Origin: a virus
Virus record (IMG/VR): IMGVR_UViG_3300044858_003100
Location: 1-36,245 of that record
Direction: 5' to 3' (one strand)
Length of the DNA: 36,245 nt
Position 1 is the first letter of the stretch; each line of letters begins with the position of its first letter. This document shows positions 1,949 to 34,289 of the stretch, piece after piece. The position numbers were made by a program, and so were the translations under genes. The notes beneath the pieces were generated by a model. The model was not told where the DNA came from and did not search any database. It saw nothing but the letters and a program-made list of their open reading frames with translations.

Positions 1949-3199
1949 CTAGACCACGAACGCTTCGACCTGCTTGAGCATCAAGCTCGACAGCGCCCAG
2001 ACCAGCGCGTCCACGCGGTCGGGGCTGCCGTCCATGGCGTCGGGGCGGAAGCTGCTCATCTGCTGCTCTAGGATCGGGAGCTGCCCGACGTGGAACACTC
2101 GCCCTTCCTGGTACAGCGCATAGACCGGCTCGGCCCGGGCCAGCTTGCCCTTGGTGGCCCGGACGTCCACGATGCGGACGCCGTGCGCCTTGTCGCCCTG
2201 CGCCGCCAGCACCGACCGCACCATGTCCCCGCCCTGGTTGACCTCGGCCACGATGCTCGCGCCCCACCGGCGGGCGGCGTCAATGGCCACGGCGCCCCAC
2301 TGCGCGGGGCTATAGCGCCCGCTCAAGTCCTCCAGCACGTAGCCGCGGCGGTCGCGGCCCAGCCCCACGACCACGATGCCCGTTTCGTTGCTGGCCGTGT
2401 TGGCCGTGACGGCGGGGTCCACCCCGACCAGAACCCTGGCGAAGCTGTCGGGCGGCTGCTCCACCCGCGCCCGCACAATGTCGGCGCCCGTCCATAGCAG
2501 CCCTTCGGTGGCGTGGGTCCACTCGCCCAGAAAGACATGGGCAAACCGGGCGGGGTTGGTCTCGCGCAGCCGCTCGGCCTGCTCGATGAAGCTGGGGCTG
2601 AGGTTGTGGGCGTTCTGCTCGTAGGTGGTGTGAACGTACAGCGTATCAGCCCGGGGCTGGGCCACGAACCGCTCGTAGAGGAAATGGGCGCGGGCGGCAG
2701 GGTTGAGCACCAGAATCACCCGGTTGGGGCGTCCCACCTGGCGGATGCTATAGTCGATCGTGTCGAAGCTCTTGGCGTCGACCAGCTCCTCGGCCTCGTC
2801 CAACACCCAGGTGGTGACGCCCTGTATCGACTTGAGCCGCGCCGATTGATTGCCGCTGCTGGTCTTGATGCCGCGGAACAGGATAGCCGAGCCGGTGCGC
2901 TTGTTGCGGATCGTGTCGCGGGTCACGTCGAAGTCGTCGGCCAGCCCCAGTAGCTCGATCTTGTCCACGAACTCGGGGATGATGGAGATGGACGCCGCGA
3001 CCATGGTCCACCGGGTGAACAGGATGACGTGCCCCGGCTCGTAGGTCAGGTTCAGCAGGAACAGCGCAATGTGAAAGCTCTTGCCGCTGCCGCGCCCGCC
3101 CGTCAGGAAGGCATAGCGCCACGACGGGGCGGGGTTGAATAGCGGCTGATAGGCACTCAGCAGCTCCAGCGGGCGGGGCTCACCCGGCGGGCTGGTCAT
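1949..3199 (-). CDS. terL: Terminase large subunit (PBSX/Terminase_3-like)
   Basis: This is the ATP-driven packaging motor and headful or cos nuclease that threads DNA through the portal. Numbering from ATG 3199 gives 416 aa. Walker A is GGRGSGKS at 34-41, Walker B is WVLDEAEE at 131-138, and the coupling-motif-like LVLNP follows at about 163-167. The C-terminal RNase H-like nuclease shows VGVDPAV (D261), a middle acidic residue in IVAEVN (E319) and the terminal SPDRVDALVWAL (D397). The frame is open further upstream to 3259. ATG 3199 is preferred because it overlaps the preceding methyltransferase gene by only 20 nt and starts where family members usually do. It is followed by portal, as in most tailed phages. 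The packaging mode (cos or pac) cannot be read here. Confidence 0.95.
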   Translation of the reverse strand: MTSPPGEPRPLELLSAYQPLFNPAPSWRYAFLTGGRGSGKSFHIALFLLNLTYEPGHVILFTRWTMVAASISIIPEFVDKIELLGLADDFDVTRDTIRNKRTGSAILFRGIKTSSGNQSARLKSIQGVTTWVLDEAEELVDAKSFDTIDYSIRQVGRPNRVILVLNPAARAHFLYERFVAQPRADTLYVHTTYEQNAHNLSPSFIEQAERLRETNPARFAHVFLGEWTHATEGLLWTGADIVRARVEQPPDSFARVLVGVDPAVTANTASNETGIVVVGLGRDRRGYVLEDLSGRYSPAQWGAVAIDAARRWGASIVAEVNQGGDMVRSVLAAQGDKAHGVRIVDVRATKGKLARAEPVYALYQEGRVFHVGQLPILEQQMSSFRPDAMDGSPDRVDALVWALSSLMLKQVEAFVV

Positions 3200-3815
3200 C
3201 CATATAGATGGTGAGGATGTGGTCAGTCGCGGGCCGTGCCCAGCTCCACCGCAGACCACGCGCCTTGAGCCACGCCTCGATACGCTCGCGGCTGTACACG
3301 TTGCAGTAGGTGCCGTGGGCGAGCGTGCGGTCGATGACCACCGAATCTTGGTCGCCCTCCCCGAGCTGGAAGAACACCACGATGACGGCGCGGCGGGCGT
3401 GGGCCAGCAGCGTCTCTAGGGCGTTGTGATACCCCGGGAGATGCTCCAGCACATGGCGGCAGTATGCCACGTCGGCCTGCCCGTAGTGGTCCACGCTGGC
3501 GATGCTGCCGAGCGCGACCTGCGCCCCGAGCCCCTGCCCGTAGGCGACCAGCTCGGGGGTGAGCTCCACGGCCCGGTAGCCGATCCACGGGTGGGCGCGC
3601 CAATAGGTCTGGAAGTCAAGGAAGGTGCCGGGGCCGAACTCCAGCACGGTCTTGGCCCCGAGCGTCTCCACTTGCTGGAACACGGCCCGGCGGCTGTGCG
3701 GGTCTGACTGTTCCAGCCAGCCCGCGAAGGTGCTGCCGGTAATGCCGTGCGCCTGGATGTGGTGGGACCACCAGACTTCGTGGGGCGGGCGGGTGGCGCT
3801 GGTCGGCTCGGTCAC
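3180..3815 (-). CDS. SAM-dependent methyltransferase (class I fold)
   Basis: The predicted 211-aa enzyme transfers a methyl group from S-adenosylmethionine; its acceptor is unknown. A glycine-rich motif I, TVLEFGPGTFLDF, lies at about 57-69. An acidic motif II follows (YRAVELTPE), and the ADVAYCRHVLEHLPGY segment is the typical Methyltransf_11/25 pattern. There is no DPPY/NPPY or Pro-Cys motif, so a DNA adenine or cytosine methylase is unlikely. Small-molecule, protein or sugar methylation fits better. It starts with GTG sharing GTGA with the upstream stop and overlaps terL by 20 nt, so it is co-translated with the packaging genes. Together with the two glycosyltransferases it could decorate virion proteins or glycans; that is inference. 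Confidence 0.75.
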   Translation of the reverse strand: MTEPTSATRPPHEVWWSHHIQAHGITGSTFAGWLEQSDPHSRRAVFQQVETLGAKTVLEFGPGTFLDFQTYWRAHPWIGYRAVELTPELVAYGQGLGAQVALGSIASVDHYGQADVAYCRHVLEHLPGYHNALETLLAHARRAVIVVFFQLGEGDQDSVVIDRTLAHGTYCNVYSRERIEAWLKARGLRWSWARPATDHILTIYMDDQPAG

Positions 3816-9979: not shown

Positions 9980-10341
9980 CAGCGGGTCTCCGGGGTGTGG
10001 TCGGTGGTGGTCAGGGAGGCGGGGGGGTGGCTGCCGGGGCGGACGGCCACCCACACCTGCTGGCGGTCGCGGATGCCGGCAGGGGCCACGAGCCCCATGC
10101 GGGTCAGCTCGGTGCGGCGCTTGCGGGCGGTGGACGGGCGCAGGTCGTCAAACGCCTGGGCGTTGTCCAGCTCGTCGTCGGTCAGGCCGCGGGAGCCCAC
10201 GGCGACGAGGTAGGTCAGCACCCGGGCCTGCGTGGCGCTCAGGCGCTGGCCCACGCGGGCGGCGGCGGCGTGGCTGGTGGCCGGATCGTCCCGGCGCACC
10301 AGCGAGCGGACCGCGGTGGTGATGCAGTCGACGGGGCGCAT
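9979..10341 (-). CDS. Winged-helix protein (120 aa)
   Basis: The N-terminal RDDPATSHAAAARVG (about 17-31) is a common signature of small phage replication-region proteins. LSATQARVLTYLVAVGSRGL, then LRPSTARKRRTELTRMGLV (about 34-85), forms a winged helix-turn-helix. ATG 10341 overlaps the ERF stop by one base. It probably binds DNA; whether it regulates or helps start replication is unknown. Confidence 0.65.
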   Translation of the reverse strand: MRPVDCITTAVRSLVRRDDPATSHAAAARVGQRLSATQARVLTYLVAVGSRGLTDDELDNAQAFDDLRPSTARKRRTELTRMGLVAPAGIRDRQQVWVAVRPGSHPPASLTTTDHTPETR

Positions 10342-11075
10342 CAGAACGGCAAGCTCCCGCCAAGGGTGTCGATGTCGCCTTCGTGTGCGTGCAGCCCGCT
10401 GCCGTCCGCGGCTTGACGAGACGCCTGAATAGCGTCGATGGCGGCAAGGATAAACCCGTTCCCCTTATCCTGCGCCCACGCGCGCAGCTTGTCCAACCGG
10501 TCGTCCTCCATATCGGCAAGCAACTGTCCTTTGAGCTCTACCGTATTCGCCTTGGCGAGGCTCATGCCCTCGGGCGGCGGGGTGGTCGGCACCCGGTCGT
10601 GCAGCCGCTGGCCCGGGGCAGGCGCGGCGGGCGCGGGCTTCGCCTGGGGCTTGGCGGGCGGGGCCTTGGCCGCGGCGTTGCCGTCGTCGTCCTCGTCCGT
10701 GGACAGCGCCAGCAGGGCCGAGATGCCATAGCGGCGACCGTAGGACAGCGCCGAGCCGAGCCCGTGGGCGTCCCCCTTGGCCACCGGCACCGGCACCACG
10801 GACGCCAGCCACTCGCCCGAAGTATGCAGCAAGCGGGTCTCGAGCATGATGCCCACCAGCCGCCCGCCCTCGCCCGTCTCGGGGTGGACCACGCCCTGCA
10901 CCACGGCCAGCCCGTGCGCGGCCAGCGCGGGGCGTACCGTCTCCATGATGCCGTCCAGCGTGGCGTAGCGGCTGCGGAAGGCGGGGTTCTTGCCGTCCTT
11001 GGCGATGGGCTTCAGGCCCGCCTGCGCGGCCACCAGCGCAGCGCACAGGGTCGCGGTCGTCTCGGAGCTGGTCAC
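10341..11075 (-). CDS. erf: ERF single-strand annealing recombinase
   Basis: This 244-aa ERF superfamily protein anneals complementary single strands in phage recombination and genome circularisation. The family core is visible: an N-terminal helix followed by KNPAFRSRYATLDGIMETVR (about 28-47) and GLGSALSYGRRYGISALLAL (about 104-123), ending in the acidic STDEDDDG patch. The middle is an Ala/Pro-rich linker. The C-terminus (DTLGGSLPF) is the kind of short acidic-aromatic tail that contacts single-strand binding proteins. GTG 11075 shares GTGA with the upstream gene. No exonuclease partner is recognised nearby. Confidence 0.9.
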   Translation of the reverse strand: MTSSETTATLCAALVAAQAGLKPIAKDGKNPAFRSRYATLDGIMETVRPALAAHGLAVVQGVVHPETGEGGRLVGIMLETRLLHTSGEWLASVVPVPVAKGDAHGLGSALSYGRRYGISALLALSTDEDDDGNAAAKAPPAKPQAKPAPAAPAPGQRLHDRVPTTPPPEGMSLAKANTVELKGQLLADMEDDRLDKLRAWAQDKGNGFILAAIDAIQASRQAADGSGLHAHEGDIDTLGGSLPF

Positions 11076-11566
11076 GGCTGGGCCTCGCGGGTCTCGGGGC
11101 GGCGCCGCGCCAGCTCCAGCACCGGGGTGTGGAAGGAGCCGTGCTCGCGGGCGTATGCGGCACGCTCGACGTCGGCGCGGGCACAGCCCCACAGCTCGGG
11201 GCGCTCGGACCAGTCGAGCGTATCGCGGCGGGACCACTCGGTGGGGATATACCCGATCATCCGGTGGGCCGTGTCCACGGCGTGCCGCGCCGCCTCCAGC
11301 GCCGTGATGGCGGCGTACAGCTCATCGTAGGCGGCAGTAATGATGGCGTGGACGGGCTCGCGCTCCTCCAGGGCGATGCGGTAGTCGCCGGTCACCTGCT
11401 GGGCGGTCGGGCGGCGCACGGCGAGGATGCGGGCGGCAGTCATTGCCAGGGCGATGCCGCGGGCCATGTCCTCCCGGGCGCCGCGGATGTCCTCGCTCCA
11501 CCGCAGCATGGTGCGCCCGGCGAGCGGGCCGTGCGTGGCCTCGCTAGGGATGGTGTGGCCGGTCAT
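11072..11566 (-). CDS. Hypothetical protein (164 aa)
   Basis: ATG 11566 shares ATGA with the preceding stop. The open frame extends to 12445 through the complement of the 12-bp repeat and is not believable beyond this start. The protein is helical, with ILAVRRPTAQQVTGDYRIAL near the middle and no visible catalytic motif. It lies directly before erf, so a replication or recombination role is plausible but unproven. Confidence 0.6.
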   Translation of the reverse strand: MTGHTIPSEATHGPLAGRTMLRWSEDIRGAREDMARGIALAMTAARILAVRRPTAQQVTGDYRIALEEREPVHAIITAAYDELYAAITALEAARHAVDTAHRMIGYIPTEWSRRDTLDWSERPELWGCARADVERAAYAREHGSFHTPVLELARRRPETREAQP

Positions 11567-11883: not shown

Positions 11884-12087
11884 TCAGTCGCTGCTGTCGA
11901 TGTGGACCACCAGCCCGCAGACCTGGCAGGTCCAATCGGTGATGCAGCGGCCCAGCTTGTGTTCGGACCACAGCCCCACCGGACGGTGGGACGGCCAGCC
12001 ATGGTGGACGCCGTCCTTGCACGCGGGCATGGGGGTCGTGGCGAAGTTGGCGGTCCAGCGGCGTCCGACGTTCGGCTTGTCGGTCAC
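11884..12087 (-). CDS. Small zinc-ribbon-like protein (67 aa)
   Basis: GTG 12087 shares GTGA with the alanine-repeat gene's stop. CKDGVHHG and [15 protein letters not shown] supply two pairs of Cys/His ligands, as in a small zinc ribbon. It ends just before the P2 gap. Partner and function unknown. Confidence 0.6.
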
Positions 12088-12749
12088 GCGTCCTCCGTGC
12101 AAAACAGACGGCGAAACTCGGCAGCCTGCACATCCCCTGCCGCATCCCTTGCCGCATCCCCTGCCGCATTCCCTGCCGCAGCCCATGCCGCAGCCCATGC
12201 CGCAGCCCCTGCCGCAGCCCCTGCCGCATCCCTTGCCGCATCCCTTGCCGCATCCCCTGCCGCATTCCCTGCCGCAGCCCATGCCGCAGCCCATGCCGCA
12301 TCCCCTGCCGCAGCCCCTGCCGCATCCCTTGCCGCATCCCTTGCCGCATCCCCTGCCGCATTCCCTGCCGCATTCCCTGCCGCAGCCCATGCCGCAGCCC
12401 ATGCCGCAGCGCGTGCCGCAGCCCGTGCCGCAGCCAACTCGGCATCCGTGGTCAGCCCGTCCGCGTGCCGCTCGGCCACGTCTAGCGCGCGCAGGCTGCG
12501 CGGGTCCGTCATCAGGTGTTGGACCTGCCGCGCACACCACACGGCATAAAGTCGGATGGCGCGGTCGTGTCCCGTGACGCACCGCAGCGCCCACAGCGCG
12601 TCATCCAACCCGTTGCTGTCCAAGATCGTGGCGAGCGTCACCGGCTCGTCGTCCGGGCCGGTCTTGCCGAGATGGGCCAGCAGCTTCTGCCATCCGTCGT
12701 CGCACGGATCGTGGGCGCGTATGGCGTTCAAAGTCGTCGTCAGCATCAT
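12084..12749 (-). CDS. Alanine-repeat protein, similar to phage proteins annotated as putative immunity (Imm5-like)
   Basis: The gene encodes 221 aa. The N-terminal 100 residues have the familiar layout [40 protein letters not shown] and DVAERHADG. From about 105 to 207 comes a strict four-residue repeat of [20 protein letters not shown] and DAAG types, then EFRRLFC. Proteins of this shape occur in many phages and are often labelled Imm5-like; I recall this from family knowledge and no function is proven. The repeat should be continuous helix. Start ATG 12749; ATG 12746 is an alternative. It ends with GTGA shared with the next gene. Confidence 0.75.
12128..12436. repeat. 12-bp tandem repeat array encoding the alanine repeat
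   Basis: About 26 units of 12 bp in the style CCTGCCGCATCC, with variable third-codon and first-codon bases. A higher-order period is visible: the unit order W, W, G, N, (N), D-R, D-R, D-G, A-G recurs as blocks of 9, 8 and a partial 7 units (about 108, 96 and 84 bp). Unit copy number may vary between relatives by slippage or recombination. There are no unique spacers, so this is not a CRISPR array. Confidence 0.9.
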
Positions 12750-13316: not shown

Positions 13317-13344
13317 AATATAGCCCGTGGGCTAGTCTTGTCAA
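13317..13344 (-). promoter_or_regulatory. Early promoter P1, near-consensus sigma70 type
   Basis: On the minus strand a perfect -35 TTGACA (13344-13339) is followed by 16 bp and a -10 TATATT (13322-13317, five of six matches). Transcription would start at about 13,310 and run a leader of roughly 54 nt to ATG 13256. This is the best promoter in the window and heads the whole early chain. Confidence 0.8.
13321..13334. promoter_or_regulatory. Palindromic operator candidate inside P1
   Basis: TAGCCC-GT-GGGCTA is a perfect 6+6 bp dyad that lies between the -35 and -10 and overlaps the -10. A protein bound there would block RNA polymerase. Confidence 0.5.
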
Positions 13345-15629: not shown

Positions 15630-16742
15630 TTACCACCCGGTCGCCGGGAAGCGCCCGGCACGCAGCGGCTCTTGCACCGTGCGAAAGATGTCCGCGTAGG
15701 TTTGTCCCACCGTCTCCAGCCGATACCGCTGCCGCGCCAAGCTGCGCACCGTGCCGCGGTCCAGATGTCCCACCTCGTCCAGCGCCCGCGTGAAATCCGC
15801 TAGGGTGTTGCACCGGATGCCGGTCTGCCCGTGCAGCACCGTCTCGGCGAACGCCCCGAAGTCCGACGTGATGGCAGGCGTGCCGCACAGCGCCGCCTCC
15901 ACCACGGCCCCGCAGAACGGCTCGGCGTACCGGCTGGGGGCCACGATGGCCGTGGCGTTGCCAAGGAACTCGGCCCGCTCGGTGGTCAGCGGTCCGACAA
16001 ATTCCACGTTCGCGGGCGCCTCGCCGAAAGCGTCCGGGTCGCCTTGGCCCGCCAGGCGGAACCGCAGGTCTGGGCGGCGCCGTGCCAGCTCCAGCACCAC
16101 GGCCACGCCCTTGCCCTCGGTCAGCCGCCCGAGGAAGGCGATGTAGTCGCCCTTGCCGCGCCCACGGGGCCAGTCGTCCACGTCATAGTAGTTGGGCGCC
16201 ACGAACTCCATGCGCGGGCTGTCGAGCTGCACGCCGTGCCGCCCCTCTTTTGCCATGACGCCGTGCCGCACCGCGTACGACTCGTAGATGCGCCACGGAA
16301 GCAGGCAGTCGTAGTAGCCGATCCCCGACTCAATCGCCCCGGCGCCAGCCGCCAGCACCGGCAGCCCGCGGATGGCCGCGGCGTGCGCATGACCGAACGG
16401 CAGCAGGATCAGGTCACCGGGCTCCACCCGCTCCTTGAGCTCCTCGCGGGCATACAGGTTCCACTGCCGGTAGACCGGCGAGCCGTCCACGGCGTCCGCC
16501 CCGTAGAAGCCGCGCCCGACCTCGTGGTAGGCGTGGCCCAGCAGCGCCTGGTGCTCGTCCTGCTCCATCAGCACCACGTCCTCGGTCGCCCCCGTCTCGC
16601 TGCCCGCCACCCCGTAGTGGATCACGCGGTAGCCGTGCGGGAACAGCATGGGGCCGAACCGCTTCACCTTTTGCGTGAAGGCACAGTGCGTAAAGTCTTG
16701 CCGCGTCACGGTATGCGGCACGGAAAGCAGGTGCAGTTGCAT
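15630..16742 (-). CDS. Glycosyltransferase, GT4-like
   Basis: The gene encodes 370 aa with a GT-B-type C-terminal half: YIAFLGRLTEGKGVAVVLEL, LRFRLAGQGD, VEFVGPL, then SRYAEPFCGAVVEAALCGTP, which holds the EX7E motif of family 4 retaining transferases, and TSDFGAFAETV. Such enzymes move a sugar from an NDP-sugar to an acceptor. The N-terminal half shows a PHGYRVIHYG strand. ATG 16742 is preferred over TTG 16748, which would overlap the tail-tip stop. It sits between the tail-tip gene and the lysis genes, so modification of a virion protein is a fair guess. Confidence 0.85.
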   Translation of the reverse strand: MQLHLLSVPHTVTRQDFTHCAFTQKVKRFGPMLFPHGYRVIHYGVAGSETGATEDVVLMEQDEHQALLGHAYHEVGRGFYGADAVDGSPVYRQWNLYAREELKERVEPGDLILLPFGHAHAAAIRGLPVLAAGAGAIESGIGYYDCLLPWRIYESYAVRHGVMAKEGRHGVQLDSPRMEFVAPNYYDVDDWPRGRGKGDYIAFLGRLTEGKGVAVVLELARRRPDLRFRLAGQGDPDAFGEAPANVEFVGPLTTERAEFLGNATAIVAPSRYAEPFCGAVVEAALCGTPAITSDFGAFAETVLHGQTGIRCNTLADFTRALDEVGHLDRGTVRSLARQRYRLETVGQTYADIFRTVQEPLRAGRFPATGW

Positions 16743-16744
16743 CG

Positions 16745-19700
16745 TCAAGTCAGGAACGTACCGGCTCGGAAACGCGACATCAGCACCGTGTCACTTAGGC
16801 GAGCGAAAACCGTCATCTGGTAGGTCGGGTTGATACCGATAGTATAGCCGCTGGTGACGGTAACCGGGCTCGTCTGGTTGGTTAGGAAGCCGTCCTCCAC
16901 ATCCCCGGTCGTGGTCACGGTGCGGTACTGGAGGTCGTAGACGGTCCCGGTCGGGAAGCCGCTGCCCGTCCAGGTAAACTCGTACTCGTTGGTTACATCG
17001 TCCGCGTTTTGCTGGCCGATGGTGATGGTGGCTGACGTAGCGTCCTTCGCTGGCACCGTCACCGATTCCCCGATGGCGCTGCCGTCCTTGGTCACCTTGA
17101 AGGATGCCACCTTGGCGGCGCCAGTAAAGTCGTTGCGCGTCACCGTGACCGTCTGCGGCGAGCTCCATCCGCTCACGGACTGCGACACGTTGTCCAGGTA
17201 GTATTCCGGCGTCCCCACGTAAGTGACCGCCAGCGAGTAGCTCGATGTACCCGGGGTGGTCACGATGCTCAGGCTTGGCCCCACGATGTCCTGCGCGATC
17301 ACGTCCACGGCATCCACCGCTGCCACGCGCGAGGCCGCGGTCACGGTGAACGTGATGCGCCCCGGCGGGTTGCCCACCGCCGGACGCGGCACCGTGTAGT
17401 CCACGAAGCTCCCCACCGCTTCGCTGGTGCTGTCCGACAGCTCCGGCGTGACCGACTGCGGATTGGTCGGCGGCGGCGAGCCGAACGTGATGCCCGTGGC
17501 ACTATAGGTGATGCCCGCCGTATTGGGCGATGGCGCCACCGGGCACGCCACCGCCACGCGCACCGTCACGTCCGTTGCCGTGGTCGCCGTGATGCGCGCG
17601 CGAGCCGTCAGGCTGATCGTGTCCCGCGAGCCGTTGACATAGCTGTAGCGATACGGCCCACTGACGTTGCCCGCCCCGCTCGCGCCATCGTACGCGGCAA
17701 TGGCGAGGTACACCGTCGAGCCCACCGCATACGGTCCTGCCAAACTGATCGTGCCGTTGCGCGCATTGACGAGCGTGCCCGCCTGCGCCGCGGTGTACGC
17801 CGCCGCATCGCTCGCCCATGGCGTGGTCGCTGCGGCCCACCGGAACGACGCCGTGTCCGTGTCCGCCTGCACGGCGATGGTCAGCCCGCCCGCCAGGTCA
17901 AACGTGCCCGCCGCGCTCACAATATTGGCGATGCGGTTCCGATCAAACGACTCCACCCCGCCCGCGATCACGCGGTCGCGGTCATCGGCGTCGAACGCAC
18001 TCACTTCGTACTCGATCTTCAGAAAGCCAGTCGTCGGGATCGTGCCCGTGTAAGTGTAGGGCGCCGCCGACACGACCGTCCACGCGCCGAAGCCGCTGCC
18101 CGTGTCCTCGCGAAAGCGCACCTGCGTCAAGCGCCCCTGCGGGTCAACGATGCTGAGCGTGACCGTGCCCTGCGTGCTGGTCTCCGTGACCGCCACACCC
18201 ACGGTGGGGACCACCGCGCCAGGGCGCACTAGCGGCTGCGGGATGCCACGCGCCTGCCCCGACACCTCGCCCGTCGCGCTGCTGGTCGTGAAGCCGCCCA
18301 GCGCGTGCTTGAGCCGGTAATAGTAGGTGGTGGCGTTGCGCGGCAGCAGATCGGCATAGGTCGCGCTCCCCCCGCTCACGCGCGCAAGCTCCGCAAAGCC
18401 CGTCCCCGACACCGGGCTGCGCTCGATGATCAGGTCTTTCGTGGGGTCACTGGCGAACAACCCGAGCGCGATGCCTTGCGGCAACGATAGGTCATCTGTC
18501 TGCGTGATCAGTGCCAACCCCGCCGGGCGCGTGGCCGTGGCCAGCGAGCCGCTGGCGGTGATGCTGGCCGTGGCGAACGGCCCGAGCCCGGACGGCGTGT
18601 CGTACGCGAGCCCCACCTGATAGGTCAGCCCGGCGCTCAGCGAACGCACCACAGCCACCGTGGTCCCCGCAGGCACCGTGGCAATCCGATAGGGCGCCCA
18701 ATTGGCGGGCGCGCTGCCGCCCAGGTACAGGTGCACTGCAATCGGGTAGGCGCTGCTGCTGTTGCTCCACTGAAGCTGCGCGCTCGTGTCGGTCACGGTC
18801 GCCGTGGGCGTGCCCGGCGTCGGAATGGCCGTCAGCGTCACCGACGCCCACGCGGTCCACGCGGAGGGGCGCCGCCCGCTCTGGAGCGTGCGCGCGCGCA
18901 CGTGCACCGTCTGCGCAGACCCAGTGACTGCGGGCAGGTCCACCGCCCCGGTCGGCACCGCGCCAGCCGCGTAGACGATAAACGTCTGCCCGTTGCCCGT
19001 GGGAGCGCTCGCGCCGACGCCCCACTCCACCTCCACGCCCAGCACGCCGCCGCTGTTGATCGTGGCCGCGTTCGTGATTGTGAAGCGCGCCACCGACAGC
19101 GGCAGCGTCGAGCTGGCCGCGATGCTAATGGTGGCCGCGGGGCTGACCGGCTGGGCGTTGATGCCGCTGTCCAGCAGCCGGAACACCGGCCCGGCGGGCG
19201 TCTCGGTGCGCCGGATCACCTGCATGATGCGCGCCCCGATGGTGCTCTCGCCTATCCGGTAGTTGCGGTTGGGGTAGTGCGGCGCCTCTAGGTACACTTC
19301 CTCCCCCACCTGAGCCGCCGCGCTGGCCGCGCTGGCGAGCACCGCCACCTCGGCGCTGGGCGCCCCGTACCCGAACCGGTCGATGGTCTCCTGCCCAATT
19401 GTTTGCAGGAACTCGGTGATAGACGGCAGAAAGCTGGCCGCGTTATGCACCATGCCCGGGATGTCGTACGCAATATCACGCGCCCCGAACACCGTGCCGC
19501 TGGCATTGGTCATGCGCTGCGTGAGCGTGGTGACCGCGATGCCATCCGGCGGGATGGGCGAGCTGCTGGTGTCGGGCGCCGCCAGATACTCGCCCAGTGC
19601 CTGCATGGTGACGCTCACCGACTGCACCGCCGACCGTTCGTCGATCTCGAACACGACCGGGGACTGGTCTCGCAGGTCTCCGGCGGCAATCGTCAGGCTC

Positions 19701-31024: not shown

Positions 31025-31581
31025 TGGGCCACCCCCAGCCGGAACAGCCGCAGGCTCTTGACCACCCGCGCCACCGTCTCGCGGCTCGCGTCCCAGCTTA
31101 TCGTGGTGTCGCCCGCCTTCTCGCTGGCCGCGCCCGGGGTGCGGCGCTGGTACAGGTCGGCGGCAAGGTCCAGAATCATCTCGGCCAGCAGCGGCTCGAT
31201 GCGCGCATAGTCCGACCGCAGGGACAGGCCGCAGCTCGCGGTTATCGTATACGGCCCGTTATAGAAACTAGTGAGCGGCTTAGCGTAAACCATCCCCGAC
31301 GCCCCGTATACGGTATACGTGGTCGGGTCCACCGTCGCGCCCTCGCTGTCGGTGATGCTGACCGACGCGATCGGGCGCCGCGGGAAGATCAGGCTGGTGA
31401 CCGGCTCGTCCAGCGACTCGGCCCGGTCTACCGCGGTCTGGCTCTCGGCGGTAATGGGGCAGTCGATCCACCCCTCCACCATCGCCTGCGCCCGCGCCAC
31501 CAGCGCGGCCAGCAGCGCGTTCTCCGCGTTGGTCTCGATCCGCAGGTACGTCTTGAGGTCGGTGCTAGTCGGCAGCGCCAC
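31021..31581 (-). CDS. Head-tail connector (gp6-like adaptor)
   Basis: The gene encodes 186 aa from GTG 31581, which lies 17 nt inside the previous gene. The N-terminal helices STDLKTYLRIETNAENALLA and LVARAQAMVEGWIDCP with a closing helix bundle (LLAEMILDLAADLYQRRT) are the pattern of the HK97 gp6 / SPP1 gp15 adaptor, which forms the ring under the portal. A Thr/Tyr-rich beta insert (VDPTTYTVYGASGMVY) lies in between. Confidence 0.8.
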   Translation of the reverse strand: MALPTSTDLKTYLRIETNAENALLAALVARAQAMVEGWIDCPITAESQTAVDRAESLDEPVTSLIFPRRPIASVSITDSEGATVDPTTYTVYGASGMVYAKPLTSFYNGPYTITASCGLSLRSDYARIEPLLAEMILDLAADLYQRRTPGAASEKAGDTTISWDASRETVARVVKSLRLFRLGVAQ

Positions 31582-32950
31582 GGACGGCCTCGCGCAGGAT
31601 GGTGGCGTACTTGGCCCCGACGACCGGGTAGTCGTGATAGGCCACGGTGTAATCGTATACGCGGCGCGCCTCGGCGGCGTAGTGGCCACTGTCAACGCAC
31701 AGCCGCCGCACCGCCTCGCGCAGCTCCTCGCGGCTGTCGGCAAACGTCCACGGGCACGGGATGCCCAGCTTCGCCAGGTCGTCGACCGCGCCATGATCCC
31801 CCGCGATGACCGGCAGCCCCATCGCCGCGCCCTCCAGCCCGCTGCCCTGCATGCCGAGCCAGAAAGAGTCGAACACCACGTGGCACGTGGCCTTGAGCGC
31901 CAGCGCCTCGCCGTGGCTCATGTCCTCGATCAGCACCGGCTCCACGGGCAGGCCGTAGTCCTTGAGATAGCCCATGACGGCCAAGAAGTCCGACGTGCCC
32001 TTGATCTCGCGCCGGGTCGGACTGTGCGCCACGCGCAGGCGCCCGCCATTCCACGGCGGCGGGTAGCGCGTCACGCTCGCCCGCAGCGCCTGGTAATTGC
32101 TGACCGGCATCGGGATCGGCAGCCAATGCTCTACCCCGTGCCGGTGGTGGTAGGGCCGCGCCCCGAACGTCACGCTGCCCAGCTTCTCGTCCGTGTCCCG
32201 ATCGCGGTAGGTCACCCGCGGGTCGCCCGGGGGCAGACTCCCGTGGTAGGTCACCGCCACCCGCTGCCGCTCGGTCGGGGCTACCCGCAGCTTTTGGAAC
32301 AGGCCGCGGTAGTCCATGTGGCAGTGAATCACGTCTGCCGTCGCGGCCAGCACGTCCACCGTCACGCGGTGGGCGTCCCCGTCCCACTGCCGCCAGTGGC
32401 AGTGCGGGTTGGTATAGTCGTAGCGCACCAGCGCCGACAGCACGCCCGGGGCCGTGTTGGCCGCGGAATGGTAGCGGTAGACCGAGCTACCCGGATCGTA
32501 CTCGGTGATCTGGAGCACCCGCAGCGCGTCCGGGGTCGGGTCCGCCGCGGCATAGTGCTCGGGCACCTCCGGGGGAGACAAGATCCGCCCCGCGCCGCCC
32601 CACAGCCGAGCTATCCCGTCCTCGTCCACCACCAGCGCGTTCGTGGACAGCCCCGGCGTCATCTGTGTGGCGGCTTCCTCGAACGCGGCCCGTAGGCTGG
32701 CCGCCATGACCCACGCCATCGGATGCGACAGCACCAGCCCCCACTGCACCAGATCGCCCACCCGGTCGGCGGGCACCTCGAACACCTCCCGCGCCGCACG
32801 CCGCACGCCACCAATGATGCAGGGCTGGATCGCCATGACCTTGGCCGCGGCGGGCGCGGGCGTCGGGGGCACTACGGCCTCGGCCACCGGGGGGAGCGCC
32901 CCGGTGGCCTTGGCCTTCCTGCTTGCCGCCTTACGAGCTGGCGGGGACAT
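31565..32950 (-). CDS. Glycosyltransferase, GT4-like, with extra N-terminal domain (461 aa)
   Basis: ATG 32950 overlaps the capsid gene by 20 nt. After a basic/Ala/Pro start and a block I cannot place (about 30-130, with FEVPADRVGDLVQWGLVLSH), the GT-B part begins RVLQITEYDPGSSVYRYHSA. It continues with ADVIHCHMDYRGLFQ, TYHGSLPPGDPR, SNYQALRASVTRYPPPWNGG, RVAHSPTRREIKGTSDFLAV and ends near GLEGAAMGLPVIAGDHGAVD. This is a glycosyl transferase group 1 layout; the last acidic EX7E pattern is less clear than in the other copy. It is wedged between capsid and connector, an unusual place, so a virion acceptor is suspected. Confidence 0.8.
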   Translation of the reverse strand: MSPPARKAASRKAKATGALPPVAEAVVPPTPAPAAAKVMAIQPCIIGGVRRAAREVFEVPADRVGDLVQWGLVLSHPMAWVMAASLRAAFEEAATQMTPGLSTNALVVDEDGIARLWGGAGRILSPPEVPEHYAAADPTPDALRVLQITEYDPGSSVYRYHSAANTAPGVLSALVRYDYTNPHCHWRQWDGDAHRVTVDVLAATADVIHCHMDYRGLFQKLRVAPTERQRVAVTYHGSLPPGDPRVTYRDRDTDEKLGSVTFGARPYHHRHGVEHWLPIPMPVSNYQALRASVTRYPPPWNGGRLRVAHSPTRREIKGTSDFLAVMGYLKDYGLPVEPVLIEDMSHGEALALKATCHVVFDSFWLGMQGSGLEGAAMGLPVIAGDHGAVDDLAKLGIPCPWTFADSREELREAVRRLCVDSGHYAAEARRVYDYTVAYHDYPVVGAKYATILREAVRGAAD

Positions 32951-34289
32951 CCAGCACGACAAACGGGCTGTGCGGATCGACCTTCACGCCCGCCACCGTC
33001 TTGTAGGCGTAGGTGGACGTGGGGATCGGGATGCCGCCACCACGCGCCAGGAACCGGTACGTAGTGATGTCCTGCACGAACTTGACGTGGATCGAGCTCT
33101 CCACCGTCAGGGCCTGCCGCAGCCCCATGGCGTAGAAGTCGCCGTTGACCAGCGCCACGTCCCCCTTGGTGCCGAGCGAGTTGAGCAGGTCGGTGACGAT
33201 GACCGGCAGCCCGAGCAGCAGCATGGTGGGACGGTCCCGCAGGTTCGCGATCCAGGTGACCATCGTGTTGTTCGTGGTCTGCATCGCGAAGAGCTGCGCC
33301 AGCACCCGGCGGGAGATCATCCACACCGAGTTGGGGCCGATGGTGTGGCGCTCGTACATGGCGAAGGCGTCCGCCGCGACGAACTGGTTCGACGTGGTGC
33401 GGTTGACCGAGATAAGCGCGCCGTTGTTGCTGTTGAGCGCGCCGAGCGGCTGGGACGAGCCCGTGCCGTCGATGGTCAGGTCTTCGTTCAGCTTGTTGAT
33501 GATCTGCCCGCCGACCGCCGTGGTGACCTCGCTGGGCAGCTCGCCCGTGAAGTCGTCACCGAGGATTTCGTCGCCGAACTCCGTGATGGCGGCGTACTTG
33601 TAGATCTCTAGCAGCCGCTGGCCAAACACCGGGTCGCGCTCCGGCTTGGTCCCGCCCTCGCCGACGATCGTGACGTTGGCGATCTTACCCGCCATCGGGC
33701 GGTTCAGGGTGGTCGTGCCCTCGTCCTGGATCAGGTACGGGATGCGCAGCGACCGGCCCGGGACGTTGTACCGGCGGGCGTACTGGAAGATGCCCGGCTG
33801 GGCGTTGGACACCGAGAAGATCTCGGGCACCTGCGTCAGCGGCAGCAGGTACTCGCCGCCCGACGTGGAGCCGGTGATCGTGCGGGTCATCTCGGCCACG
33901 CGGCGCAGCCCCTCGATCTCGCGGGCGTTCTTGGTCCCCTTGGCCGCGGCGCGCAGGTAGGCGCCAAGCGTCGGGAAGTGGTTCACCAGCACCTTCTTGA
34001 CGTCCTCCATGGCGTCCTTCATGCCGCGGAACTCGGTCCGCTCGGCCTCGCCGCCCACGTCCACGCGGGTCAGCCCCTCGGCCCCGCCCTGCCGGTCAAT
34101 CTCGGCGTCGGGCGTGAACTCGGCCGCGGCCTGCGCCCGCATCTCCAGCGCCACGATCCCGTCCGTGCGCGCCTTCACCTCGTCCGCACTCAACGTGAGC
34201 GCGGGGTCCATCAGCTCGGCGCGCAGCTTCTGCGCCTGGGCGCGCAGCTCGTTCGCGGCGCGGTTCTTGGTCACCAGCGTGTTCTGCAT
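32931..34289 (-). CDS. Major capsid protein, HK97 fold
   Basis: The gene encodes 452 aa. The N-terminal 100 residues (RAANELRAQAQKLRAELMDP, DEVKARTDGIVALEMRAQAA) form the helical delta/scaffold domain normally cut away by the prohead protease. SGGEYLLPLTQVPEIFSVSN, GEGGTKPERDPVF, YKYAAITEFGDEILGDD and DGTGSSQPLGALN are hallmarks of the Phage_capsid family. ATG 34289 follows AGGAG by 3 nt. The order protease then capsid is standard. Confidence 0.95.
   Translation of the reverse strand: MQNTLVTKNRAANELRAQAQKLRAELMDPALTLSADEVKARTDGIVALEMRAQAAAEFTPDAEIDRQGGAEGLTRVDVGGEAERTEFRGMKDAMEDVKKVLVNHFPTLGAYLRAAAKGTKNAREIEGLRRVAEMTRTITGSTSGGEYLLPLTQVPEIFSVSNAQPGIFQYARRYNVPGRSLRIPYLIQDEGTTTLNRPMAGKIANVTIVGEGGTKPERDPVFGQRLLEIYKYAAITEFGDEILGDDFTGELPSEVTTAVGGQIINKLNEDLTIDGTGSSQPLGALNSNNGALISVNRTTSNQFVAADAFAMYERHTIGPNSVWMISRRVLAQLFAMQTTNNTMVTWIANLRDRPTMLLLGLPVIVTDLLNSLGTKGDVALVNGDFYAMGLRQALTVESSIHVKFVQDITTYRFLARGGGIPIPTSTYAYKTVAGVKVDPHSPFVVLDVPASS

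Follow-up and report, generated by a model that had tools for sequence, protein, structure and literature searches.

Arrays of tandem 12-bp units are already known from mycobacteriophages, in which Tweety gp54 (2007) is built from units with a fixed Ala pair and fixed silent sites, and in which sister phages have 48, 26 and 15 copies (PMC2884959); the corresponding proteins are Tweety gp54, Che8 gp57 and PMC gp51. In the accounts given in later reviews, gp54 is a counter-defence protein, and Tweety defence-escape mutants that gain or lose gp54 repeats overcome Phrann or MichelleMyBell prophage defence (PMC9262239, PMC8549241); the mechanism of this tuning is described as obscure. The other described system that concerns us is the Imm5 family of immunity proteins, of which SsdAI blocks the active site of its toxin through a protrusion formed by a loop and short helices (PMC7901873). 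The array design and its tuning are thus known from Tweety; what appears to be new, in the literature that was searched, is the connection to Imm5 and the size and spread of a second family. Searches for Imm5-like phage proteins returned nothing relevant, and the Imm5 link was found nowhere in that literature.

The array described here lies in a window of 36,245 nucleotides (that is, the whole stretch analysed, positions 1 to 36,245 of IMG/VR virus record IMGVR_UViG_3300044858_003100; Table 1). TRF finds a 12-bp unit in 25.2 copies at 12131–12432 and, over the array, a 96-bp higher-order period (3.1 copies, 94% match), and lag-12 identity reaches 0.89, where the highest values are 0.43 elsewhere in the window and 0.42 over 2,000 shuffles, so that the array is confirmed as real and far above chance. 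The coding frame is a minus-strand ORF, fixed by the conserved N and C termini of its relatives, and the other long ORFs across the array are by-products of a 12-bp unit without stop codons. An earlier note on this DNA had counted about 26 near-identical units; the array itself stands, and the exact count is 25 tetrads of the form XYAA followed by a degenerate GDVQ, a copy number that is provisional because short-read assembly breaks within the array, as in an independent contig (L232:1–240, window position 12229) that is 100% identical to the window over 7,886 bases and stops there. X is W, R or G and Y is A, D or N, encoded as (TGG/GGG/AGG/CGG)-(GCT/GAT/AAT)-GCG-GCA in all 25 units with minor variants in the first of them. 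The threefold higher-order repetition proposed in the note (108, 96 and 84 bp) holds for the 108- and 96-bp blocks, whereas the third is not an exact 84 bp but an incomplete block. Each block opens with a Trp pair (at W117, W153 and W185), and the WWND order of the third is common to three relatives (L002, L004 and L005). The array contains 7 Arg and 9 Asp and is close to neutral in charge, and membrane or DNA binding finds no support.

Table 1. Features of the array gene and its surroundings in the window.
Feature	Coordinates	Strand	Basis or remark
Whole gene, 221 aa, PHROG 18326 (function unannotated)	12084..12749	-	PHROG E 5e-64
N-terminal head, residues 1-104, predicted all-helical, Imm5-like core in second half	12438..12749	-	AF2 + hhalign
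12-bp tandem array, 25 XYAA units	12138..12437	-	Residues 105-204; predicted hairpin arms, tip near residues 155-164
Higher-order block 1, W W N N D R R A D, 108 bp	12294..12401	-	
Higher-order block 2, W W N D R R A A, 96 bp	12198..12293	-	TRF + codon reading
Higher-order block 3, incomplete, W W N D R + GDVQ, 72 bp	12126..12197	-	
C-terminal cap, conserved (stretch of 17 residues), predicted packing back onto head	12087..12137	-	
Downstream 67-aa ORF, overlaps stop codon (GTGA)	11884..12087	-	Kept only in L002 and L004
Promoter-like TTGACA-16-TATATT, 11/12	13317..13344	-	Ahead of operon 13262 -> 12749 -> Erf
Erf-like ssDNA-annealing gene, same operon, downstream	10341..11084	-	PHROG 155, E 1e-41

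The array gene is the third after a strong promoter-like site, with Erf and a Gam-like gene downstream. Three such sites were found in the stretch against 0.2 expected, and the 100 bp around this one are 95–96% kept in two relatives (L003 and L004). Elsewhere, neighbours of the relatives include exonuclease, RecT, Bet, Erf, NinG and helicase genes, and in L003 the array gene sits at the opposite end of the same gene block, which points to a mobile accessory cassette. A toxin–antitoxin pairing was considered and rejected: no toxin partner turned up near the window gene, the loci examined have no conserved downstream neighbour, and the overlapping 67-aa ORF, which contains a CxxC pair, is too restricted in distribution to be a conserved partner. 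A non-coding RNA was likewise rejected, there being no Rfam match; nor does the window protein match a known defence protein in PADLOC. The ‘tail fiber’ label of a relative in Curvibacter phage P26059A conflicts with the early-region setting and was set aside. Among the virion genes of the window, two glycosyltransferase-like genes (15630–16748 and 31565–32962, minus strand) and a methyltransferase-like gene (3180–3815) were recognized by eye.

Against Pfam, the window protein has no match at E < 1 and stays below the gathering cut-off of PF21805 (Imm5_like), which is matched weakly by 2 of 62 relatives (best, 0.028). The loci that bridge this distance resemble Imm5_like: an intermediate, L106, which shares 46% identity with the window head, passes PF21805 (27 over 25 bits) and also matches PF14423 at 2.6e-4. 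Once all Ala regions had been removed, hhalign aligned the head with the bacterial Imm5_like core at a probability of 92.7 and a score of 37.1 (null maximum, 18.9; reached in 0 of 150 column shuffles). On this profile evidence we take the head core to be homologous to bacterial Imm5_like, which, together with L106, backs the Imm5-like label that the gene had been given. The L106 locus (438–1354; G007:C51), on a Pseudodesulfovibrio MAG contig, holds two tandem Imm5-like paralogues over the PF21805 cut-off that overlap by 4 bp. No solved relative of the window protein was found by sequence; PDB entry 7jtu_B (SsdAI), which is Imm5 by sequence (E 1e-14), is the top PDB fold match of both phage models at E values that are not significant (2.6 and 4.9), and a BFVD match carries the name Imm-5-like domain-containing protein. 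Scans for Imm5_like gave almost nothing in one bacterial phylum and one class, and 28 of 249 in another phylum. Three bacterial Imm5 genes of one phylum (L116, L147 and L148) all lie directly behind large toxin genes, whose products, judged by eye, end in a deaminase-like HAE...CxxC motif, in agreement with the placement of Imm5 beside deaminase-type toxins described by Zhang et al. 2012 (PMC3482391). A cognate toxin beside the gene, a trait of PF14423, is absent from the phage loci examined, unlike bacterial Imm5.

A second line of comparison leads to gp54, which belongs to phrog_3416 and whose head motif, GSHxxGSGKGCAMNVIS, is absent from the window family. Six relatives that share the gp54 head (L342, L344, L346, L347, L350 and L351) contain the core of the window family ahead of their own Ala-rich tract (hhalign probability 93.2, score 38.9; null maximum 18.3, with 0 of 100 shuffles reaching the score), as in the alignment of ARQVQHLN...AAEAWADNP with a 26-letter stretch of the window family, and they also match Imm5_like (80.4; 0 of 100 shuffles). 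As these relatives hold the core, both families share an Imm5-type core, an Ala-rich tract and a C-terminal helix; in Tweety's own clade, hhalign detects no homology between the core and that of the window family, and the link to gp54 therefore runs through the gp54 relatives only. In Gordonia phages, a gp54-head relative sits between RecE and RecT genes. The gp54 relatives also come near DUF6931 (PF22011; 25.9 of 27 bits over core and Ala tract at L347:1501–2190), and the window family may be part of that superfamily.

Relatives of the window protein number 478 in IMG/VR, with 21 phage records and 24 loci in bacterial assemblies. All but the shortest follow one plan (that is, a head of ~105 aa, an Ala-rich tract and a C-terminal helix with a conserved Gln), and the tract has a median length of 66 aa and a range of 3–120. 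Strict tetrads are not universal, as some members have tracts with 3/4 spacing and a few (L050, L092) are almost without a tract. Of 61 distinct members, 35 have a head-to-cap distance of 3 modulo 4, which is what 12-bp steps would produce. Two variants stand apart: in L006 (5001–5606) the head–array junction motif ATDEELAAAW is repeated three times, a duplication unit larger than 12 bp, and in a Vibrio phage version of 375 aa (L086:5004–6131) a degenerate Ala-rich tract is fused to a C-terminal DUF5983 (40 bits).

Constancy of copy number in all relatives, combined with no phenotype on deletion, had been named as the result that would speak against a role for the array, and constancy is not what we found: the window has 25 units, L002 11, L003 about 20, L004 18 and L005 13. 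The heads of the window and L002 differ by one silent base in 315, and as their flanking DNA is only 88–92% identical, recombination is also possible. In ten contig pairs at no less than 99% DNA identity, tract length is equal throughout. Over evolutionary time, then, changes in copy number are frequent, and switching within populations was not seen, within the limits of assembly. A fast phase-variation mechanism was rejected on these equal lengths and on a frame that is always kept, gains and losses being multiples of 12 bp. The proposal that copy number acts as a tunable switch therefore survives as a tuner, for which Tweety gp54 is the precedent, and not as a fast on/off switch.

Within arrays, pS is 0–0.05 in most members and pN is 0.1–0.2, with pN above pS in 34 of 41; the minimum number of steps is 23.5 silent against 137.5 replacement, a ratio of 0.17 versus 0.38 under neutrality that is indicative, the members being kin. 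The arrays of gp54 likewise show pS far below pN. The codon pair for the fixed Ala–Ala is of nine types across phages and nearly constant inside each array: silent sites are homogenized among the units of a gene, and X and Y keep their variety of residues. At Y, Asp (a C-to-A transversion) occurs 150 times and Val (a C-to-T transition) 6 times, and as Val is rare despite being the transition, selection sees the protein. The head is under purifying selection (dN/dS 0.08–0.20 among close relatives). Unit order, by contrast with a coded arrangement, is indistinguishable from random in shuffle tests of 26 relatives, and it is therefore likely that composition and length, rather than a code or a stripe, are selected. 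The slowly rotating stripe of Trp, Arg, Asp and Asn envisaged in the earlier note was rejected in the same 26 members, in which W, R, D or combinations of them are unclustered at 3.5, 3.6 and 3.65 residues per turn; the Trp face of the window (0.89 at 3.6) reflects three pairs spaced 36 and 32 residues apart and is not general.

An AlphaFold2 model of the window protein, built from 62 sequences, gives the head a pLDDT of about 95 and places helices at residues 102–159 and 165–216, with confidence dropping from both feet towards the hairpin tip. In the model of L077, a 141-aa member with six units, pLDDT is 92.6 and a short hairpin carries the cap at 91–95. The array is accordingly modelled as the arm of a helical hairpin from which the cap returns to the head; for long arms the tip is of low confidence and the hairpin is a prediction only. 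Of the all-helical alanine repeat put forward before, the models retain the helices but replace the single continuous helix with a hairpin.

Taken together, we lean towards reading the gene as an early, dispensable phage counter-defence protein with a hairpin arm tuned by copy number. The architecture is well supported, and we infer the function (that is, counter-defence, dispensability and tuning) by homology and analogy: from the likeness in design to gp54, the genetics of gp54, the shared core and the early recombination-operon setting. A conserved head with its Imm5-like core and the C-terminal helix would be held at the base of the hairpin, whose arm is the array. Unequal recombination or slippage could add or remove whole units without a frameshift, changing arm length in four-residue steps, and this length, with the mix of W/R/G and A/D, would set the placement of head and cap towards a partner. 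The likeliest partner is a defence toxin, of the host or of a prophage, or the complex of such a toxin, and the array protein would block it as Tweety gp54 is reported to do, in the accounts cited above, when its repeat number changes. More tentatively, as a possibility that we would not yet call probable, the two phage families may descend from a single immunity core of Imm5 type and form a class of counter-defence inhibitors whose specificity is retuned as 12-bp units of the hairpin arm are gained or lost, a heritable length dial against toxin-based defences.

Other readings were weighed against this one. The protein could be an orphan Imm5 immunity protein that uses its head and arm to plug a deaminase-type toxin at the active site, as SsdAI plugs SsdA, with the array serving only to diversify the binding surface; the toxin would come from competitors or be one that the host uses against phage. 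The deaminase-like toxins adjoining all three sampled Imm5 members and the identity of the best fold match of both models point this way, but those fold matches alone are not significant, the phage gene has neither a toxin nor a conserved partner next to it, and a random-looking unit order is ill-suited to a specific plug; we consider this unlikely. It is quite improbable, in our estimate, that the protein is a recombination or replication accessory whose helical arm works with Erf/RecT and exonuclease as a spacer or scaffold: recombination genes do adjoin it in many phages, yet it occurs in only 2 of 49 sampled Erf-bearing loci (many of them incomplete), its neighbour changes from phage to phage, and the same operon region also houses counter-defence genes. 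The early operon region of phages keeps such genes in lambda, namely gam, kil and the Ea genes.

We give very little credence to the idea that the array is a selfish low-complexity expansion, neutral for function, which an Ala-rich helix tolerates. Such an expansion would agree with freely varying tract lengths, with the random-looking order and with GC-rich 12-bp units that slip easily; however, replacement variation exceeds silent variation in most arrays, Asp greatly outnumbers Val at the Y site, Ala is retained at positions 3 and 4 across nine different codon pairs, independent arrays reuse the same residue alphabet, and repeat number has a phenotype in Tweety as recounted in the reviews.

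The counter-defence reading joins the tuning of gp54 to a family with a solved toxin–immunity complex (SsdAI), providing a concrete structural hypothesis, and carries the idea beyond mycobacteriophages to hundreds of phages, among them phages of Pseudomonas (such as AF and PPpW-3, which have the gene), Burkholderia, Erwinia, Vibrio and Curvibacter. PHROG 18326 thereby gains a testable role, with repeat number as the parameter to vary.

Set beside the known systems, the window family shares with Tweety gp54 the array design of two fixed Ala and two variable residues with fixed silent sites, a copy number that varies among closely related phages, conservation at both the N and the C terminus and the status of an early accessory gene; it differs in its alphabet (W/R/G and A/D/N, against G/W/Q and S/Y in gp54) and in its N-terminal head, and function has been shown, in the accounts cited, for Tweety only. 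Bordetella phage BMP-1 bbp36 VR2, compared by its description as cited in PMC2884959, is likewise a dispensable phage gene with variable short tandem repeats, although its unit is 24 bp. With Imm5_like and Imm5, the phage family has in common a helical core (xxWAxxCAxxVLxx...DxRxxxAlexAxxWxxG) followed by Ala-rich helices, whereas the bacterial members have ordinary Ala-rich helices and no 12-bp arrays, and the window family adds a TTLNxIR...SNGLDDALW head and stands without an adjacent toxin.
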